Below are positions 802-27,826 of a stretch of 64,000 nt of DNA, piece by piece. The notes under the pieces are model-generated. The model had not been told where the DNA came from. It was given only the letters and a program-made list of their open reading frames with translations, and did no database searches. Origin of the DNA: an uncultured Prevotellaceae bacterium (GTDB lineage: Bacteria > Bacteroidota > Bacteroidia > Bacteroidales > Bacteroidaceae); contig CAMJZV010000005.1 in NCBI GenBank assembly GCA_946410305.1, positions 1-64,000 of the forward strand. Direction: 5' to 3'. The translations under genes were made by a program, and so were the position numbers. Numbering within the stretch: position 1 is the stretch's first letter; each line of letters starts with the position of its first letter.

Positions 802-1800
802 ATGTTAGAGAACATTACATATCTTAATGATTACGTTCAAACCGTATCACATACGAATAGTTATTGGATGGTACGAACTATGGGTGGTGACTATTTCGAC
901 GAATTTGTTAAAAACAAGTATATCGCCATTGGCTATAATGAGATTCGTCTCCAGAATGTTGCTACAATAAATAATGAAGATCATGTCGCAATAAGAAAGT
1001 TGAGGGAGAGCGTTCATGAGTTGTTTCCCGAAGCTGCGCGACCTGGACATATTACTTCGCAACTTATGAGGTTCTGTAAAGGACTGGCAGTGGGTGATAT
1101 CATTGTGTTACCAGGAACTTCTTCATATAGGTTGGCTATATGCAAAATCTGTGGTGAGCCATATGAGGTTGCTGTAGCAACGGGAGATTGCCCTTTCCTG
1201 AAAAGACTTCCAATTGAGGTATTACGTGTCACTGACCGTACAAAACTATCACCTAAGGGACAATTGATGTTTAATTCAAGACATCCTATTTCTGATATAA
1301 CCGAATATGCAAGCTATATAGACAGTGGCATCCGCGATTTCTATAATAAAGGCGAAGATACTCATCTTCTTCTCAGAGTAAACACTCAGAACGATGTTAC
1401 TTTTGATCAATATAGCTGTTTATTCCAGTTTCTGAAATTGGCAGAAGAGTATTGTCAAGAGAATGATATGGAGGCAAGCTTCAAAGACGTTATTATCAAG
1501 ACGCAGATGGAGTCACCAGGATTCATTCATTTTATCTCCAAAAATAAGAATATTCTATTTGCTTTGGGTATGTTGGTCTTGCTAGTTAATGGCGGTGGAT
1601 TGAAATGGGGCAACTTTGACTTGTCTACTCCTGGACTCATTAAATCATGTAGCGATTTCCTCGATAGAAAGACTGATAGAGAACTGAGAGAATCGATGAA
1701 GGCAAAATTGGATTCACTTGGTACTGACACACCCGATGACTTTCAGAAAGCAGTCATAGAACTTCTCAAAGTTCAAAACGAAACCAGAGCAAAATACTAG
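802..1800 (+). CDS. Hypothetical protein, possible defence or membrane-associated effector
   Basis: A 332-aa protein that I do not recognise with certainty. The N-terminus has YWMVRTMGGDYFDEFVKNKYIAIGYNEI, which recalls the 'W.VR...G....F....(V/I)AIGW.E' start of an EVE/PUA-like domain found in some Mrr-type restriction and other defence proteins. The middle has no motif I can name. A hydrophobic stretch near residues 248-265 (ILFALGMLVLLVNGGG) may be one membrane segment, and the C-terminus is a charged helix. Base composition is more AT-rich than the phage structural genes. Its promoter lies between inverted repeats and could be invertible. The last 4 bp overlap a convergent gene. The defence role is inference only. 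Confidence 0.55.
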   Translation: MLENITYLNDYVQTVSHTNSYWMVRTMGGDYFDEFVKNKYIAIGYNEIRLQNVATINNEDHVAIRKLRESVHELFPEAARPGHITSQLMRFCKGLAVGDIIVLPGTSSYRLAICKICGEPYEVAVATGDCPFLKRLPIEVLRVTDRTKLSPKGQLMFNSRHPISDITEYASYIDSGIRDFYNKGEDTHLLLRVNTQNDVTFDQYSCLFQFLKLAEEYCQENDMEASFKDVIIKTQMESPGFIHFISKNKNILFALGMLVLLVNGGGLKWGNFDLSTPGLIKSCSDFLDRKTDRELRESMKAKLDSLGTDTPDDFQKAVIELLKVQNETRAKY

Positions 1801-1997
1801 GCTGGAAGATAATAAAAGGGTATGAGGGCAAGAGCAAAAGCGATTCCACAATAAGTAAGAATCCTTTCTTGTCTTTTGCTGAGTCTTTTCTTTTGTGTAA
1901 ACATTGAAATTAAACCATGCATAATAATCATACTTCCTGCCGCTAAAACGGTGAAAGTACCAAGAATTGCTAATATGTTCCTGACTATTTCTATCAT
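1797..1997 (-). CDS. Small two-span membrane protein, unknown function
   Basis: A 66-aa frame from ATG at 1997, chosen over an upstream TTG. It has two hydrophobic segments (ILAILGTFTVLAAGSMIIM and IAFALALIPFYYL) joined by a basic loop, MFTQKKRLSKRQERI. It has its own TATCTTTG -7 box 18 bp upstream. It converges with and overlaps the 802 gene by 4 bp. No family recognised. Confidence 0.5.
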   Translation of the reverse strand: MIEIVRNILAILGTFTVLAAGSMIIMHGLISMFTQKKRLSKRQERILTYCGIAFALALIPFYYLPA

Positions 1998-2015
1998 GAT
2001 TTGAGTAGTACTTTG

Positions 2016-2023
2016 CAAAGATA
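2016..2023 (-). promoter_or_regulatory. -7 element for the small membrane protein gene
   Basis: TATCTTTG on the reverse strand, 18 bp before the ATG at 1997. No clear -33 box. Confidence 0.45.
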
Positions 2024-2084
2024 ACGAATATATTGTATAGTTGTTGTCGAAATAAACAAAAAAATCATTAAATCATAAAATTTT

Positions 2085-2115
2085 CCCGAATTTCTTTGGA
2101 GATTCGGGATTTTTT
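2085..2115 (+). terminator. Rho-independent terminator
   Basis: CCCGAAT (2085-2091) pairs with ATTCGGG (2102-2108), followed by ATTTTTT. The next promoter overlaps it: its TTTG lies in the loop. Confidence 0.7.
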
Positions 2116-2125
2116 CTTACCTTTG
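2095..2125 (+). promoter_or_regulatory. Promoter of the structured RNA and/or the 2580-3369 operon
   Basis: TTTG (2095-2098), exactly 19 bases, then TACCTTTG (2118-2125): a perfect Bacteroidetes promoter. Transcription should begin close to 2130-2134, where the first arm of the RNA's long-range helix starts. Confidence 0.85.
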
Positions 2126-2129
2126 CCAT

Positions 2130-2298
2130 CGCTAAACTCATAGAACGGTAACGTTCAAAGGACGATGAAAGACGTCCGAAACAAAATCGGGCATTTTTTA
2201 TGCTCATACTTCCGAGACCTGCCAGAGGTCTCATCAGGCCATAAGAGGCTGCACCCCAGTAGATATAACGTCCTTGGACGGAGTCTATGAGTTTAGCG
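2130..2298. repeat. 14-bp inverted repeats at 2130-2143 and 2285-2298
   Basis: CGCTAAACTCATAG and its exact reverse complement are separated by 141 bp. A further direct copy of 13 bases lies at 2562-2574. They may form an RNA helix, or mark DNA inversion or insertion. Confidence 0.8.
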
Positions 2299-2561
2299 AC
2301 AGGGACTGCAGTCTCTTTCTGTTTGTCCCTGTCCCTTGGGGAAGGCGCTCCTTGCCGTGAGGCAGGAGGGATATAAGAGAGAAGTCCGAAAGGATCCACG
2401 TTCGAAAAGTTGGCCCGCCTTCCTCTCCAAGGGGAGAGTGTTCTAGCCGTGAGGCAGAACGGGATAGAGTGCCGCATCCGCAAGGATGTACGTCATGGAA
2501 GCGTGGGAGCTCTCCCCTTTACAGACGAAACAACAAACCGCACAGGGCGGTTCCCTGTATA

Positions 2562-2574
2562 GCTAAACTCATAG
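2562..2574 (+). repeat. Third copy of GCTAAACTCATAG, 5 bp before a start codon
   Basis: Identical to 2131-2143 and complementary to 2285-2297. It can compete with the first copy for the same partner, and it ends 5 bp before the ATG at 2580. Confidence 0.8.
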
Positions 2575-2579
2575 CAATT

Positions 2580-2819
2580 ATGCAAAATTCAATCCAACTC
2601 AGGCAGGCTCAGCCTACGATGCTCCAGCAGCTGGAGACACTCGTAAAGAGCATGCGGCAGAAGTTCGACCAGAAGATCTCTGATAGCGAACTCTGTCAGG
2701 TACTTGGCATCACGCCGTGGCACTTCTCTCTTCAGGGCCTTGCATATACTGCAGCCCTCTTCCTGGTTCTCTTGGTAGTATGTGGTGTGGCCGAATGGCT
2801 TGATGGGGTTAGGCTATGA
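2580..2819 (+). CDS. Small single-span membrane protein, phage operon
   Basis: A 79-aa product from ATG at 2580, directly after the structured RNA. The N-terminal 50 residues form a polar helix-rich part (MLQQLETLVKSMRQKFDQKISDSELCQVLGI). One hydrophobic segment follows near residues 54-72 (AYTAALFLVLLVVCGVAEWL). It overlaps the next gene by 4 bp (ATGA), so the two are translationally coupled. No family recognised; an inner-membrane phage protein is the most that can be said. Confidence 0.55.
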   Translation: MQNSIQLRQAQPTMLQQLETLVKSMRQKFDQKISDSELCQVLGITPWHFSLQGLAYTAALFLVLLVVCGVAEWLDGVRL

Positions 2820-3046
2820 ATAAGATGACATTGACCCCAGAACTGACCGAGGCCCTGTGTGGCTTCTGTGGCGACGTGGCCACGATGGAAAACAACGTGG
2901 ACCTGATTGACTGCATCGAGGAACATTACATCGATGACGAAACCGAGGAACCTGCCAAGGTACTCGACACTCTCAAGGCGCTTCGCAATCTGAAGCGTGA
3001 TATGATGAAGGTATTAAAAGCAATGAAAAGAGCAGAAGGAGTATGA
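2816..3046 (+). CDS. Small acidic/helical hypothetical phage protein
   Basis: A 76-aa protein. The first half is acidic (VDLIDCIEEHYIDDETEEP), and a basic helix ends it (RNLKRDMMKVLKAMKRAEGV). It overlaps both neighbours by 4 bp in ATGA junctions, marking a tight three-gene operon 2580-3369. No known domain seen. Confidence 0.55.
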   Translation: MNKMTLTPELTEALCGFCGDVATMENNVDLIDCIEEHYIDDETEEPAKVLDTLKALRNLKRDMMKVLKAMKRAEGV

Positions 3047-3369
3047 AAGAGATGAGTGATAAAATGAAAGAGCGCGTGCAGAAATGGCTGGAGTCGCTCG
3101 ATGAGGAGGAAAAGAACCAGGTGGAGCTGCTTGATGCCTACTTCACGTTCCGTACGAACATGCCTGGTGAGGATCCTGGCTTCGGCAAGGCCTCTGAGGA
3201 ACCGAAGACTACGGAGGAGATCATGGATGACCTCACTCCGATGATGAATATCAGTAAGGTAGTGGTGGCTGGGTATATGCGTTCCCACGAATACGGCTTT
3301 ACCACTCTGTCCGATGGTTCTGTCAGGTGGGCCATCTGGCGATATCTGGATGTAACCGTTCTGACCTGA
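3043..3369 (+). CDS. Hypothetical phage protein, helix-turn-rich
   Basis: A 108-aa protein ending the first small-gene operon. An N-terminal amphipathic charged helix (KMKERVQKWLESLDEEEKNQVELLDAYFTF) precedes a segment TEEIMDDLTPMMNISKVVVAGYM and a C-terminal YGFTTLSDGSVRWAIWRYLD. The middle could be a small winged-helix or packaging-associated fold, but this is not established. A terminator-like hairpin follows 33 bp downstream. Confidence 0.55.
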   Translation: MKEMSDKMKERVQKWLESLDEEEKNQVELLDAYFTFRTNMPGEDPGFGKASEEPKTTEEIMDDLTPMMNISKVVVAGYMRSHEYGFTTLSDGSVRWAIWRYLDVTVLT

Positions 3370-3402
3370 TGAGATAATACATGTATAGAGCATTTTTTTT
3401 GG

Positions 3403-3440
3403 ATGGCTGTCCCGTCGAGATGACGCGGCAGCCATTTTTC
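3403..3440 (+). terminator. Rho-independent terminator
   Basis: ATGGCTG (3403-3409) pairs with CAGCCAT (3429-3435), with further inner pairing of CCGTC and GACG, then a T-run. It closes the 2580-3369 operon. Confidence 0.7.
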
Positions 3441-3470: not shown

Positions 3471-3478
3471 TACCTTTG
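3471..3478 (+). promoter_or_regulatory. -7 element before the virion gene block
   Basis: TACCTTTG, 19 bp before the ATG at 3498. No TTTG at the ideal 19-20 bp spacing (TTTG lies at 3455-3458, 12 bp away), so the -33 box is weak or diverged. Confidence 0.55.
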
Positions 3479-16533: not shown

Positions 16534-17778
16534 ATGCGACGCATCAAGGACAGTCGGGAGAATGAGACGGAGCAGAACGCAAGGGATGCTTTCGACAACT
16601 ATGCGGACGGCAAGCATAAGCGGGCCGATATCCGCATGTACGAAGCTGAACTTGATGAGAATGTCCGTCTGGTACTCGCCGACATCATCAATGAGACCTT
16701 TGAGCCGCAAGGCTACAAGGAGGCTCATATATTTGACAAAAAGCACAGGAAGCTGGCTAAGGCTCCCATCCGCGACCACCACACGGAGGCCGCTGCCATA
16801 CTACCATACGAACAGGCGGTGTATGACTACATCTCCTGGAGAGCACCGGCAGTAAGACCTGGACTGGGAACGCATGCCTTTTTCCGCTTCGTCAGGAATG
16901 AACTGTACCGATATCCACAGCTGGATGTCGGGTACTACATCGCCCTTGACATCCATCATTATTTCCCGATGATGGACCATTCCATCCTCAAACAAAAAAT
17001 TGCGAATAAGTTCAAGAAAGGGAAGCTGCGTAACTTTATATATAAGGTGATAGACAGTTACCTGCAGGGCGCTCCACTTGGTATCAAGATTGCACAACTC
17101 TTCGGCATGCTCGATCTCGCAGACTTCGACCGTATGGCAGAAAGATTCTTCGGCATCGCCGATGACCCTGAGCGTATGGCCTACTGGACCAGTCGCTATA
17201 TCAGCGAGAAGATCTTGACAGCAAAGACGCCTGAGGAGGAAGAAATGATAGGGAGAGGGAGCCAGTTCCTGGCAGAGCGGTTCCAGAGGTTCGCACGTGA
17301 AGGGCTGCAGCACTATTTCCGCTTCGTGGATAACTTTCTAGTAATGCACGAAGACAAGACCTTCCTCAGAATCGTCAGGGACTTGATGATTATGCATCTG
17401 ACACGGGACTACCTCTTCGTCCTGAATACCGACTACAACGTGAGGCCTACATGGATGGGCATCCGCATCTGCGGATATACCTTCTACCATGATCACGTTG
17501 AAGCGGCAAAGCGCAACAAGCAGAATCTCGCACGGAGAATAAAGCGGTTGCAGAAGAAAGGAATAGAGGAGGAACAGATCCGTATCAAGGTGGCAAGCCA
17601 ACTTGGATTCATCAAACATGCAGATTGCATAAACTTACTAAAAACTTTAGGTATGGAAAAGTCATTAGGAAAAATCATCAACAAAAGGAGAATTAAGCCT
17701 CCATTCCCAGGAATGGGTCCGGATCAGAAAATTCACTTCACTTCAATTGTAAACAAATGTGAAAACGGGGGGGGGTAA
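16534..17778 (+). CDS. DGR reverse transcriptase
   Basis: A 414-aa protein. Reverse-transcriptase motifs: motif A ALDIHHYFPMMDH with Asp139, motif B QGAPLGIKIAQLFG (178-191) in the variant typical of DGR RTs, motif C FRFVDNFLV (Asp266-Asn267), and MGIRICGYTFY (308-318) downstream. The C-terminal basic thumb has LARRIKRLQKKG. It would copy the template RNA with errors at adenines and seed replacement of the VR. The usual second Asp of motif C is Asn. No Avd-like gene is found nearby. The frame ends in a 9-G tract (17767-17775) followed by TAA; a -1 shift there would continue into the next ORF. Confidence 0.9.
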   Translation: MRRIKDSRENETEQNARDAFDNYADGKHKRADIRMYEAELDENVRLVLADIINETFEPQGYKEAHIFDKKHRKLAKAPIRDHHTEAAAILPYEQAVYDYISWRAPAVRPGLGTHAFFRFVRNELYRYPQLDVGYYIALDIHHYFPMMDHSILKQKIANKFKKGKLRNFIYKVIDSYLQGAPLGIKIAQLFGMLDLADFDRMAERFFGIADDPERMAYWTSRYISEKILTAKTPEEEEMIGRGSQFLAERFQRFAREGLQHYFRFVDNFLVMHEDKTFLRIVRDLMIMHLTRDYLFVLNTDYNVRPTWMGIRICGYTFYHDHVEAAKRNKQNLARRIKRLQKKGIEEEQIRIKVASQLGFIKHADCINLLKTLGMEKSLGKIINKRRIKPPFPGMGPDQKIHFTSIVNKCENGGG

Positions 17779-24631: not shown

Positions 24632-26473
24632 ATGACAGAAGTGTATATTGACCAACAGAGGGTGTTCTTCAAGGAGAATACCAGTCTAAAACTCACTATA
24701 GAAAATACTTTTTTCGGGAATACAGGAAGCTATACGCTCGATGTTACCTTCCCTCTTGACATCGAGGAGAACCGCAAAGCATTCGGTTATGTAAACCGCC
24801 TTGATGTTTCAAAAAAGTATAAAAAATATGATGCTATGATAGTGGTGGACTCGAAGATGGTTTTCAAAGGTTCAGCCAAGATTACAAACATCAGCGATTC
24901 AGAGGTCAAATTACAGCTGCTGTCAGGAAATAGTAATGTAAAGTTCTGGACGAAGGCACAGAAGATTTACATCGATGAGCTGGAGTACGAATACACTGAT
25001 ACCAAGGAATCATTTGATAACTTCGTGGGTTTAGACGGATTTGGCTTTAGGCCAATCATTGTTGCAGGTTCCTTTCCAGGAAAGAAGGGAATCTACTGCT
25101 ACGTCCCCATTCTAGACGAAAACGAAGGACGTGATGAGACAGGAATGTCAAACGGTTTACTCAATGAACACATGTTGATGGTAGATAAATATGATCCTTA
25201 TGGAGAACCCGTTTATATCGAGGTTGCGAGGGATTGTATTTGTCCTAATTTGATGTTTGTGTTTAAATGGATAGCCAAGTACTTGGGATATAGAATCAGG
25301 AGAAATGACAGGGATAATCCATTGGTAAATGGTATTTATATTGCCACGGCAACAAGGACAACGAAAAATGAATGGCGTGACAGCTCGGAAGAGAAGGCGA
25401 TGGCAAAAGCTCTGCCGCACTGGACAGTGGAAGAGTTCGTTAAGCAGTTACAGAATTTCCTAAATGTGACAATAATCTTCGATGACATAAACGGAACGGT
25501 CGATATCGTTAGCGATACGTTTACTGAGGGTACAATAGATATCACAGATTCAGTTGAAGAAGAGTACGAGGTGGAGGTTATAGATGATGAGGATGTAGAA
25601 AGTAACCTCTATGACTCCAATGTGGTGTACAAGGAGGGAAGCAGTGACTATCATGGCATAGACATGGTGAACAGGGAGATTATAGACTCATTCACGGAGG
25701 TAAAATGCACATACGAGGAGTTCCTTAGACAGTGGGATTCTATGACTGCAGATGAAAGGAAAATCACAATATGGACAACAGAGAGGGGACAGTACTGCTC
25801 TGATGGAAATGGGGAGAAAAAGCGCTTTAACCACTTCGGAGGTATCATCAGAAACAGACAGAATGACAATGATATAGAGCTGAAAATATCGCCTGTTGCA
25901 ACGACAAGGGATATAGAGATGTACGCATTCGACTATAGTTATGGAGGAGGAAATACTATTTATAAAAATGCTTTCGAGCGGAAAGGAACATGCCCGCAGA
26001 CCGTCCTCTGTCTCCAGAATCAGTATGAACCCGCCAATAAGCAGACCGTTTGGGATGCCATTCAAGGGGAAAATGAGGAAGGGAATAAAAAAGAGGATAT
26101 CATGCAGGTTTTCCTTATGGACGGCTTGGCTGTTCCCAGCGGCTTCTATGGAGGATTATATCAAATTCCGTTCACCCATTATTCCTATAACTGTGTCTAT
26201 GACCCTACAAACGTTATATATAACCATTGTAAATGGTCGTTGTCTCTGGCTAACGATAATGCCTTGATGAATATTGGCATACTGCATGAGAGTGCCAGAT
26301 TGCAGAACAGGAACGCGGTATACAGTATTGTTTTTATCGCTGAACATATACCTTCTGTATATTACGTGTTCATGATCAGAAACAAGAGGTATACATGCAA
26401 AAAAATAGAAGTTCAATTCGATGCCAATGGTATGGATAAAAAGATAAGAGGATATTTTGAAGAGATATTATAG
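24632..26473 (+). CDS. Phage tail-tip / distal-tail-like protein
   Basis: A 613-aa protein 5 bp after the tape-measure gene, where distal-tail and tail-lysin genes usually lie. It starts MTEVYIDQQRVFFKENTSLKLTIENTFFGNTGSYTLDVTFPLD, a distal-tail-like beta domain. Then come insertion domains with aromatic surface residues and a C-terminal EVQFDANGMDKKIRGYFEEIL. No catalytic motif is seen. It ends in a 6-bp overlap with the convergent integrase. A baseplate role is inferred from position. Confidence 0.6.
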   Translation: MTEVYIDQQRVFFKENTSLKLTIENTFFGNTGSYTLDVTFPLDIEENRKAFGYVNRLDVSKKYKKYDAMIVVDSKMVFKGSAKITNISDSEVKLQLLSGNSNVKFWTKAQKIYIDELEYEYTDTKESFDNFVGLDGFGFRPIIVAGSFPGKKGIYCYVPILDENEGRDETGMSNGLLNEHMLMVDKYDPYGEPVYIEVARDCICPNLMFVFKWIAKYLGYRIRRNDRDNPLVNGIYIATATRTTKNEWRDSSEEKAMAKALPHWTVEEFVKQLQNFLNVTIIFDDINGTVDIVSDTFTEGTIDITDSVEEEYEVEVIDDEDVESNLYDSNVVYKEGSSDYHGIDMVNREIIDSFTEVKCTYEEFLRQWDSMTADERKITIWTTERGQYCSDGNGEKKRFNHFGGIIRNRQNDNDIELKISPVATTRDIEMYAFDYSYGGGNTIYKNAFERKGTCPQTVLCLQNQYEPANKQTVWDAIQGENEEGNKKEDIMQVFLMDGLAVPSGFYGGLYQIPFTHYSYNCVYDPTNVIYNHCKWSLSLANDNALMNIGILHESARLQNRNAVYSIVFIAEHIPSVYYVFMIRNKRYTCKKIEVQFDANGMDKKIRGYFEEIL

Positions 26474-27625
26474 GCTACCGTCGAATGTCTTGACTTCATC
26501 CGGTACCTCTTTCTCTTTTTTAAGATACCTGTTGGTTACGGCTACATCAGAGTGGCCGGCCTGGTCACGGGCTATGACGACACCTTTTGCATTGGCAAGG
26601 TCACGGATGCCAGAATCCTTCAGAGAGTAGAACTGGTAGCTGGAAGGCCATCGCAAGGCCTTGCGCATCTTTCCCCATTCATAGCGGAAAGAGTTCAGGA
26701 AGGTCATTTCAGGACCAGGCTTAAGACCTTCGCCGAAAATATAGTATTGTGATGGTGAATCGAAGGTTTTGAGGGCTAGCATCAGTTCAAGGACCTTCAT
26801 GTTCAGGCCAACCTGACGCTCCTTGTGGTTTTTAGCGACTTCTGCAGGAACGGTTACTTCCCTGTCTGCAATCGATATGTTACCAATCTTCAGGTGTCGC
26901 AATTCATCCGGACGGATGAGCGTATAGTATTCCATCATGCAGGCTAGCAGGAAATGTTTGTTATTATTATTAAGGTATTCGCGCATGCGCGCGAGGGCTG
27001 TCTTTGGTAGGGCGTCACGCTTCTTTTCACTCTCGCGGAGCATGTGCACGTCTTCAACAGGATTCTTGCTGATGTACTTTCGTTCCACCAGCCATGTTCC
27101 AACGGTCGACAGCCACGTGCGGTAGTTATTACGTGTCGTGGCAGAGACATCCTTATCCATAATGAGGTAGTCCAGGAAATCTGTGACAAAGCTGCGATCG
27201 AACTGATAAATGAAGTTGATACGCACATGGCATTCTCTGATGTACGTATCCAGCGTTCCTACTCTGGACAAATAGTCATAGGCTGTCTTATGCTTCAATG
27301 TACCCTTAGCCTCCATGGAGGATATATAGTCGCGGTATTTCTTCAGCACGTCGTCGAACGCCGTCAGGTGCCTGGTGCTGTCACTGGCAACGAACGGGTT
27401 CCACCCCTTCATCAGCCTGTGGGTGATACTGGTAATGAGAAGTGAGGCCATCATCCTGCGTTCGCCGACAGTCTTACATCTGTCGAGCATGTATTTCTTC
27501 CTTTTCATCCGCTCAGAAACGGGATCCCATGCGAAGAAATCAACATACCAGCTCTTACCGGTATGAAGTTGGGGTAGTGTGTATCCTACTAGCGCAGCAC
27601 CTGATAGAAATTCACCTATGGGCAT
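26468..27625 (-). CDS. Phage tyrosine integrase
   Basis: 385 aa from ATG at 27625. A longer frame reaches into the tRNA gene, but this start gives the usual beginning (LPQLHTGKSWYVDFFAWDPVSERMKRKKYML) of Bacteroidetes phage integrases. Catalytic features: Arg in LIRPDELRHLK, a YSLKDSGIRDL box (Lys where His is usual, the normal form in this subfamily), His358 in GHSDVAV and Tyr367 in TNRYLKK. It catalyses site-specific recombination between phage and host attachment sites. It reads left, away from the tRNA-fMet gene 128 bp away, and overlaps the tail gene end by 6 bp. Confidence 0.9.
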   Translation of the reverse strand: MPIGEFLSGAALVGYTLPQLHTGKSWYVDFFAWDPVSERMKRKKYMLDRCKTVGERRMMASLLITSITHRLMKGWNPFVASDSTRHLTAFDDVLKKYRDYISSMEAKGTLKHKTAYDYLSRVGTLDTYIRECHVRINFIYQFDRSFVTDFLDYLIMDKDVSATTRNNYRTWLSTVGTWLVERKYISKNPVEDVHMLRESEKKRDALPKTALARMREYLNNNNKHFLLACMMEYYTLIRPDELRHLKIGNISIADREVTVPAEVAKNHKERQVGLNMKVLELMLALKTFDSPSQYYIFGEGLKPGPEMTFLNSFRYEWGKMRKALRWPSSYQFYSLKDSGIRDLANAKGVVIARDQAGHSDVAVTNRYLKKEKEVPDEVKTFDGSL

Positions 27626-27716
27626 TTTTTTTGTTGGCGAAAATCCAGAGGGTTCGCCAACAGGTTCAACAATTGTGTCCGAGTCGTGTCCGAGTTCAGT
27701 CCCGGAAGATATGAAA

Positions 27717-27739
27717 AAAGTCCCATCATCAGGGACTTT
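27717..27739 (-). terminator. Terminator of tRNA-fMet
   Basis: AAAGTCCC (27717-27724) pairs with GGGACTTT (27732-27739); on the reverse strand a CTTTTTTC run follows. It lies between the tRNA 3' end and the integrase. Confidence 0.7.
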
Positions 27740-27753
27740 ATCATTTACTTTAG

Positions 27754-27826
27754 TTGCGGAGGCAGGATTCGAACGTGCGACCTCCAGGTTATGAGCCTGG
27801 CGAGCTACCAACTGCTCCACTCCGCG
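27754..27826 (-). tRNA. Initiator tRNA-Met (CAT)
   Basis: A 73-nt cloverleaf on the reverse strand with anticodon CAT in the loop CTCATAA (27791-27793 on the forward strand). The acceptor stem has a C1-A72 mismatch with pairs 2-7 intact and A73, the mark of initiator tRNA. CCA is not encoded. The T stem has one mismatch (C52-C62). The prophage integrase is beside its 3' end, so this is the likely attachment site. Confidence 0.9.

Follow-up and report, generated by a model that had tools for sequence, protein, structure and literature searches.

A leader built around three matched copies of one hypervariable sequence was found upstream of a small prophage operon in DNA of an uncultured Prevotellaceae bacterium (assembly GCA_946410305.1, contig CAMJZV010000005.1). 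In the window, which here means the whole stretch of 64,000 nucleotides analysed, the leader occupies positions 2129-2574 and, as judged from its sequence, it is a member of a family of Bacteroidales mobile-element RNAs that is new relative to Rfam 15, no model of which matches it. The sequence, termed X, is present at both ends of the leader (X5' and X3'), and an inverted copy (mid) between them is complementary to both. It is very likely that these strands form a three-strand RNA switch. The interest of the family lies in its being a structured RNA without an Rfam 15 match, present in 39 of 398 genomes of the window's genus, with covariation across three matched strands.

The leader lies between a gene for a phrog_10226 protein (802-1800) and a run of phage genes, and the window carries further marks of a prophage, namely tail genes, an endolysin, a tape measure and an integrase (26468-27820) that adjoins a tRNA-Met (27753-27826). 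The features of the leader and the operon are as follows.

2095-2125 (+): predicted promoter, read by eye; TTTG at 2095-2098, a 19-nt spacer and TACCTTTG at 2118-2125
2129-2144 (+): X5', first copy of the code and predicted 5' end of the RNA; 16 bp with mid, supported by covariation
2143-2156 (+): P0-type hairpin GAACG-GTAA-CGTTC, directly 3' of X5', from sequence
2160-2177 (+): hairpin hp2, GGACG/CGTCC, from sequence; its 3' arm is common to the terminator-like hairpin
2174-2199 (+): terminator-like hairpin GTCCGA/TCGGGC followed by ATTTTTT; a terminator scan flags 2174-2192
2243-2253 (+): 5' strand of P3, AAGAGGCTGCA, closing the loop that holds mid
2284-2299 (+): mid, the code in inverted orientation, able to pair with either X5' or X3'
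2307-2317 (+): 3' strand of P3, TGCAGTCTCTT, partner of AAGAGGCTGCA
2338-2425 (+): accessory module 1, with GTGA and GAAA loops; holds the first repeated hairpin of the preliminary description
2429-2519 (+): accessory module 2, with GTGA and GCAA loops; holds the second repeated hairpin
2537-2558 (+): predicted H-type pseudoknot, ACCGC/GCGGT (2537-2541/2547-2551) and ACAGG/CCTGT (2542-2546/2554-2558)
2562-2574 (+): X3', third copy of the code, ending 5 nt upstream of the ATG at 2580
2580-2819 (+): first gene, 79 aa, with a hydrophobic C-terminal stretch (by eye)
2816-3046 (+): second gene, 76 aa, no assigned Pfam or PHROG function
3043-3369 (+): third gene, 108 aa, possibly winged-helix; AlphaFold2 mean pLDDT 84.3
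3403-3440 (+): terminator-like hairpin that would end the operon, read by eye; the terminator scan did not flag it
3471-3478 (+): TACCTTTG element after the operon-ending hairpin, read from sequence

A preliminary description of this stretch, made from the letters alone, had placed a perfect promoter beside a 14-bp long-range helix. Bacteroidetes promoters have a -33/-7 consensus, and the TTTG, the 19-nt spacer and TACCTTTG are indeed present when the window is read against it by eye. A TTTGC-type element also lies upstream of X5' in most of the listed triads, a TTTG-like upstream element having served as a filter in collecting part of them. Separately, a terminator-like hairpin with a U-run at 2084-2115 overlaps the -33/-7 region of the predicted promoter. 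The helix is real, but its length had been underestimated: 2129-2144 and 2284-2299 are 100% complementary over 16 bp. The third copy at 2562-2574, which had been missed, can pair with the same mid strand over 13 bp. When 2126-2580 was folded, the energy was -179.3 kcal/mol (z -6.1), far more stable than shuffled sequences, none of the 100 being equally stable; the minus strand of the same stretch gave z -3.9, likewise with 0 of 100. The ORFs within 2129-2574 come from a mechanical listing; position 2580 is where the operon's first gene begins.

At the gathering score, Rfam 15 matched only two tRNAs in the whole window, and the 11 matches obtained in 1800-3400 at E-values up to 10 (best, 17.1 bits) were all below their own gathering scores; no family matched the RNA at 2129-2574. 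Rfam has a model for IsrK, which was absent from the matches of both searches (the whole window, and 1800-3400 at E up to 10). So was the C4 motif, which is detectable by Rfam according to PMC5320573. The suggested resemblance to ROOL and GOLLD was not borne out, since these and the other Rfam families gave no match (at the gathering score, or at E up to 10 in 1800-3400), the short form of the family described below is only 204-277 nt long, and the RNA is a leader that continues into a start codon. A multimeric cage made of RNA alone is characteristic of ROOL and GOLLD. The likeness is that these two also occur in phages and prophages and are large, structured and pseudoknotted (PMC12286853), whereas they often lie near tRNA islands, and many GOLLD RNAs exceed 800 nt. 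Among phage records of GenBank, one had a 50-base match to the window, and a distant family member as query gave two weak matches; all of these records are unannotated. No description of this RNA was found in the literature searched, the scope of which excluded subscription papers and preprints.

Relatives were collected by using the third gene of the operon (3043-3369) as a query, which gave 15 viral loci; when their upstream regions were compared, the code differed between phages and agreed at three sites within each phage. A triad finder, defined as X, its reverse complement and X again, was run on 94 loci and the window, and found triads in 59 of the 95 sequences, a few of them by chance (e.g. 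L026), with shuffled sequence giving 4. Pattern scans of viral and genome collections enlarged the set to a final 72 non-redundant triad elements with 58 different X. Sixty-nine of the 72 were selected on four features, namely three copies in exact agreement over 9 nt or more, a TTTG-like sequence on the upstream side, a downstream ATG and, between mid and X3', a motif resembling CTCTGTC; the remaining three (the window, L010 and L011), which are without that motif, were added by hand. Most short-form loci were retrieved with exact 16- or 17-base patterns, and many long-form loci with an 18-base pattern, so that the lack of variation in the pattern sequences themselves results from the retrieval. 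One of the genome scans gave 47 stretches, ten of which belong to the set, in records named Prevotella, Prevotellaceae, Bacteroidaceae or Bacteroidales. One further element, in the 5.6-Mb single-contig genome G249 (L198, 8621-8782), lies between a gene for an ArdC/MutS_I protein and a gene for a ParA-type ATPase, and the family is thus not limited to obvious prophages.

The 72 elements fall into two forms. The short form comprises 50 elements, with a length from X5' to X3' of 204-277 nt (median 229), and the long form comprises 22, including the window, with 371-636 nt (median 436). The difference is an insert of modules of about 90 nt between mid and X3', two of which exist in the window. The preliminary description had reported at least four GNRA-capped hairpins and a duplicated GCCGTGAGGC unit with swapped stems; the fold of the tail yields four such hairpins (GTGA, GAAA, GTGA and GCAA), and the duplicated units, at 2351-2370 and 2443-2462 and 85% identical, sit inside the two modules (2338-2425 and 2429-2519). 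However, these hairpins belong to an accessory insert, absent from 50 of the 72 elements, and what defines the family is the X triad; the observation itself is confirmed, and the structure extends further than had been described. In L003 (tail, 427 nt), four GNRA-type modules stand in tandem between mid and X3', as judged by folding, and the insert seems to have grown by duplication of modules. L015 has a single module of 112 nt, and certain other long elements fold as one larger unit.

Alignment of the relatives gives strong covariation, which together with their number and the lack of an Rfam match supports the earlier proposal of a new class of structured prophage RNA. In alignment A1, which has 44 rows (the 50 short-form elements less six divergent members excluded by hand), 96.8% of the cells of the X5'-mid helix are paired, compared with 73.5% in shuffles and at most 53.1% in slid versions, and 11 of its 15 pairs have changed on both sides. 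For the mid-X3' helix the figures are 97.4%, 73.6% and at most 44.5%, and 12 of the 15 pairs differ on both strands. When every pair of columns was scanned, the two helices ranked first and second among covarying helices; they are mutually exclusive. G-U pairs are nearly absent from the triad in this 44-row alignment (three one-sided cells of 651 in X5'-mid and 0 of 655 in mid-X3'), which would also be expected from a role at the DNA level or from copying between the repeats.

The rest of the core is also structured. P0, hp2, a hairpin after mid and the H-type pseudoknot before X3' are jointly 97.3% paired, and 10 of their 23 pairs have changed on both sides. P0, which in the short form shares bases with the last part of X5', is 100% paired in the 44 short-form relatives, with three of its five pairs changed on both sides. 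In the cases read by eye in which P0 and mid call for different bases, the last part of X5' agrees with P0. The cells of hp2 are 96.8% paired in A1 and 100% in A4 (35 of the 42 listed short-form and five of the 22 long-form elements), with little variation, and a further alignment, A3, holds 34 of the 44 A1 rows (eight were too long, and two near-duplicates were left out). Six of the nine pairs of the short-form pseudoknot have changed on both sides. P3, which closes the loop holding mid, occurs as 36 distinct strand pairs in 95 elements, the strands varying together (for example, AAGAGGCTGCA/TGCAGTCTCTT in the window versus AGCGGTGGCC/GGCTGCCGCT in another element). Because mid lies inside this loop, both X helices are pseudoknotted with P3. 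In a shuffle test of P3, at least one of 40 shuffles was equally good in 41 of the 95 rows, and P3 therefore rests on the covariation of its 36 strand pairs. Upstream of mid, P3 contains a further short copy of part of the X core, and this copy tracks X, none of 1000 permutations being as good.

A model, R1, was built from short-form cores from which X5' and X3' had been removed, and it matches the window's long form at an E-value of 6 × 10-7 (64 kb searched). Among 399 sampled genomes from the family, R1 matched 24 (E 0.01); it matched 8 of 393 from the order (E 0.001) and 39 of 398 from the window's genus (E 0.001). The samples overlap, and each includes the window's own genome. When 33 of 34 matches were tested, the remaining one offering no stretch for the test, the mid-X3' pairing was beaten or equalled by at most one of 60 shuffles in 26, the mid-X5' pairing in 26 and both in 22, whereas in 11 the pairing of mid with X5', with X3' or with both fell short of significance; among the R1 rows, L179, L195 and L197 re-read one tandem locus, L183 and L194 are nearly identical, L206 is a false match inside a coding gene, and the script took L189 and L205 on the wrong strand. 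The distant members carry quite different X, and G-U pairs are present in the triad helices of four of them (L173, L174, L180 and L183), which indicates that it is as RNA that the strands need to pair. The mid-X3' helix of L177 and that of L207 extend into the ATG start codon; 33 duplexes of the short form also seemed to cover the ATG, but these were discounted because they include internal loops. Beyond the window's own family, the script recognized triads in three or more families of the order (L202, L203 and L207). In L189, X5' and mid are present and X3' is missing before the start codon (by eye), so that this locus may be decayed or a different variant.

X itself varies far more than its surroundings. 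Its first 11 nt occur exactly three times in 68 of 69 loci, many of which contain only part of a phage. In 33 pairs of elements that are 85-90% identical outside X and P0, each X copy is only 70-71% identical; L035 and L076 are 97% identical elsewhere and 80% in X, and L029 and L035 are 91% and 60%. X therefore evolves quickly, and its three copies change together. Elements residing in one genome have different X in G337, G336, G852, G928, G929, G944 (partly by eye), G967 and G1047, and for G876 and G074, which have two elements each, the finder returned a single X. Such differences were considered as support for immunity and rejected, because X of separate loci differ nearly always (only 72 of 5112 cross pairs of loci match over 11 nt of X). 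L197 (G337:C2) and L249 (G1047:C86) hold the RNA three times in tandem, every unit having a different X and a start codon after it; the G1047 units are 73-79% alike elsewhere and match at 9-10 of 14 positions in X, about the same as other pairs of such divergence. On the other hand, G249 has two copies with the same X, in 98% identical DNA of one chromosome, which speaks against strict mutual exclusion.

We lean, with moderate confidence, towards a self-specific antisense RNA switch as the function of the leader of this three-gene operon, with mid holding back the translation of the first gene and X5' lifting that block. Transcription would start at X5', and the terminator-like hairpin would end some transcripts as an RNA of about 70 nt bearing X5'. 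Mid paired with X3' would block the first gene, translation being the presumed switched step, and X5' would compete for mid and free the start of that gene. The RNA bearing mid or X5' may also act in trans on copies with the same X, which would explain the diversification of X. Predicted duplex energies in the window are -26.3 kcal/mol for X5'-mid and -20.3 kcal/mol for mid-X3'. X5' is the stronger partner by more than 1 kcal/mol in 20 of the 22 long-form elements, so a switch acting in cis would mostly sit open there, whereas the 50 short-form elements are split (X5' stronger in 17, X3' stronger in 19 and the two within 1 kcal/mol in 14).

The hairpin after X5' is read here as a likely attenuator. 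In both forms a conserved GGGC-A-TTTTTT can supply its 3' arm and U-run, and its 5' arm is shared with hp2. Of 94 elements searched by script, 78 had a terminator-like hairpin, in most of them with the U-run 61-68 nt beyond the first base of X5', although at least five of the 78 differ from the intended hairpin (L114, L172, L174, L186 and L192), those of L075 and L084 are weak, and 69 of 780 shuffles were equally good. For the window the script returned none, yet the terminator scan flags 2174-2192. Column covariation of the stem is weak, at least partly because registers differ between elements.

A bolder reading is that X is a tag. The conserved pseudoknotted leader would carry a hypervariable tag of 13-16 nt in three matched copies, serving Bacteroidales mobile elements as a widespread RNA code of self-recognition, and diversifying selection would keep related prophages mutually deaf; we put this forward tentatively, as a possibility short of a probability. 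If it is true, phages with a common tag would be silenced or activated together, as an RNA counterpart of repressor-operator immunity groups. If the tag gives specificity in trans, phage immunity in a major gut lineage would be partly written in base pairs, and the compatibility of prophages would be predictable from sequence and directly testable. A related explanation, in our view rather unlikely, is trans-acting immunity of the P4 type, in which a processed mid RNA would repress by pairing with X5' (with termination near +66) and with X3', in its own element and in superinfecting homoimmune ones. The order of the sites matches seqA-seqB-seqC as given in PMC4825925, a terminator-like hairpin stands downstream of X5', and X is hypervariable and concerted; but the two G249 copies share one X, and the mostly different X of co-resident elements give no support, X of different loci almost always differing.

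The other explanations fare worse. Were the three X sites operators of a phage repressor, their variability would reflect the specificity of the repressor and the RNA pairing would be incidental, as the few triad G-U pairs in the 44-row alignment and the position of site 1, directly downstream of the predicted promoter, might suggest. We regard this as highly improbable, because there are exactly three sites in 68 of 69 loci (many with partial phage), P0 pairs with the end of X5', distant members contain G-U pairs, and the X-core piece inside P3 follows X (0 of 1000 permutations); DNA operators were rejected on the number of sites, just three in 68 of the 69 loci. The direct-inverted-direct order, being built into the definition of the finder, is no evidence on operators. 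A ribozyme or intron-like element, with mid as a guide for cutting or joining at X5' and X3', is no more credible than operators, although the pseudoknotted core has a guide-like loop and identical target sequences stand on both flanks. Known introns use short guide pairings, unlike the one long helix of the X triad; the two Rfam searches (the whole window, and 1800-3400 at E up to 10) gave no match to a group I or group II intron or a ribozyme, and a mobile intron with empty sites was rejected, because no empty site was seen and the triad is present in 13 of 13 loci with sufficient upstream sequence (of the 15 viral loci). The hok mRNA, whose type of toxin-antitoxin system joins a small toxic membrane protein with a separate antisense RNA, delays its translation by a metastable 5' hairpin and refolding, and a comparable leader might here delay translation of a small toxic membrane protein. 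The covarying 5' hairpin P0 competes with the long helix and the small first gene has a hydrophobic C-terminus (by eye), but the operon goes on with further genes, and this too is improbable, if marginally less so than the preceding two.

For the antisense switch preferred here, the P4 leader and IsrK of Gifsy-1 are the closest working models; the likeness is one of logic, and by the tests run the leader is a member of neither. In P4, as described in PMC4825925, CI RNA pairs with seqA upstream and seqC downstream, and the system acts via transcription termination with processed CI RNA. The family shares with it a middle sequence complementary to one upstream and one downstream site (72 elements, by covariation and assuming a single transcript). 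It differs in that the start codon adjoins X3', the core is pseudoknotted and the named hosts are Bacteroidales. According to the same source, IsrK is a short 5' RNA that opens its own read-through mRNA. Its scheme, in which a single promoter feeds a short RNA ended by a terminator and a longer read-through mRNA whose masked start the 5' RNA can free (PMC4825925), resembles that proposed here. However, the order here is X5'-mid-X3', whereas the strand of IsrK that pairs with the start lies downstream of the start site. C4 of phages P1 and P7 is an antisense RNA cut from a larger transcript that gives immunity, with one loop partly covering ribosome-binding sites and another, variable loop holding the specificity (PMC5320573). 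C4 is about 77 nt long, with three stem-loops, and cut by RNase P, whereas here one strand of 13-16 nt has two matching sites.

The proteins of the operon give few clues. The first-gene protein has no Pfam or PHROG match, and the first gene varies between loci; a protein of the type encoded at short-form loci has 161 homologues, with no Pfam domain among the 120 listed. The third gene product has a confident structural model and is possibly a winged-helix protein, although its Foldseek matches are weak (best E, 0.27); there is one sequence match in the PDB (E 0.74). Small proteins resembling it were picked by motif among the extracted downstream proteins (25 picks), 13 of which form protein set A5. 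Elsewhere in the window, a reverse transcriptase (phrog_1423) is encoded at 16534-17778, close to the tail genes, and possibly belongs to a diversity-generating retroelement, and a HicA-type toxin protein is encoded at 291-488 on the minus strand, close to the left end of the contig.
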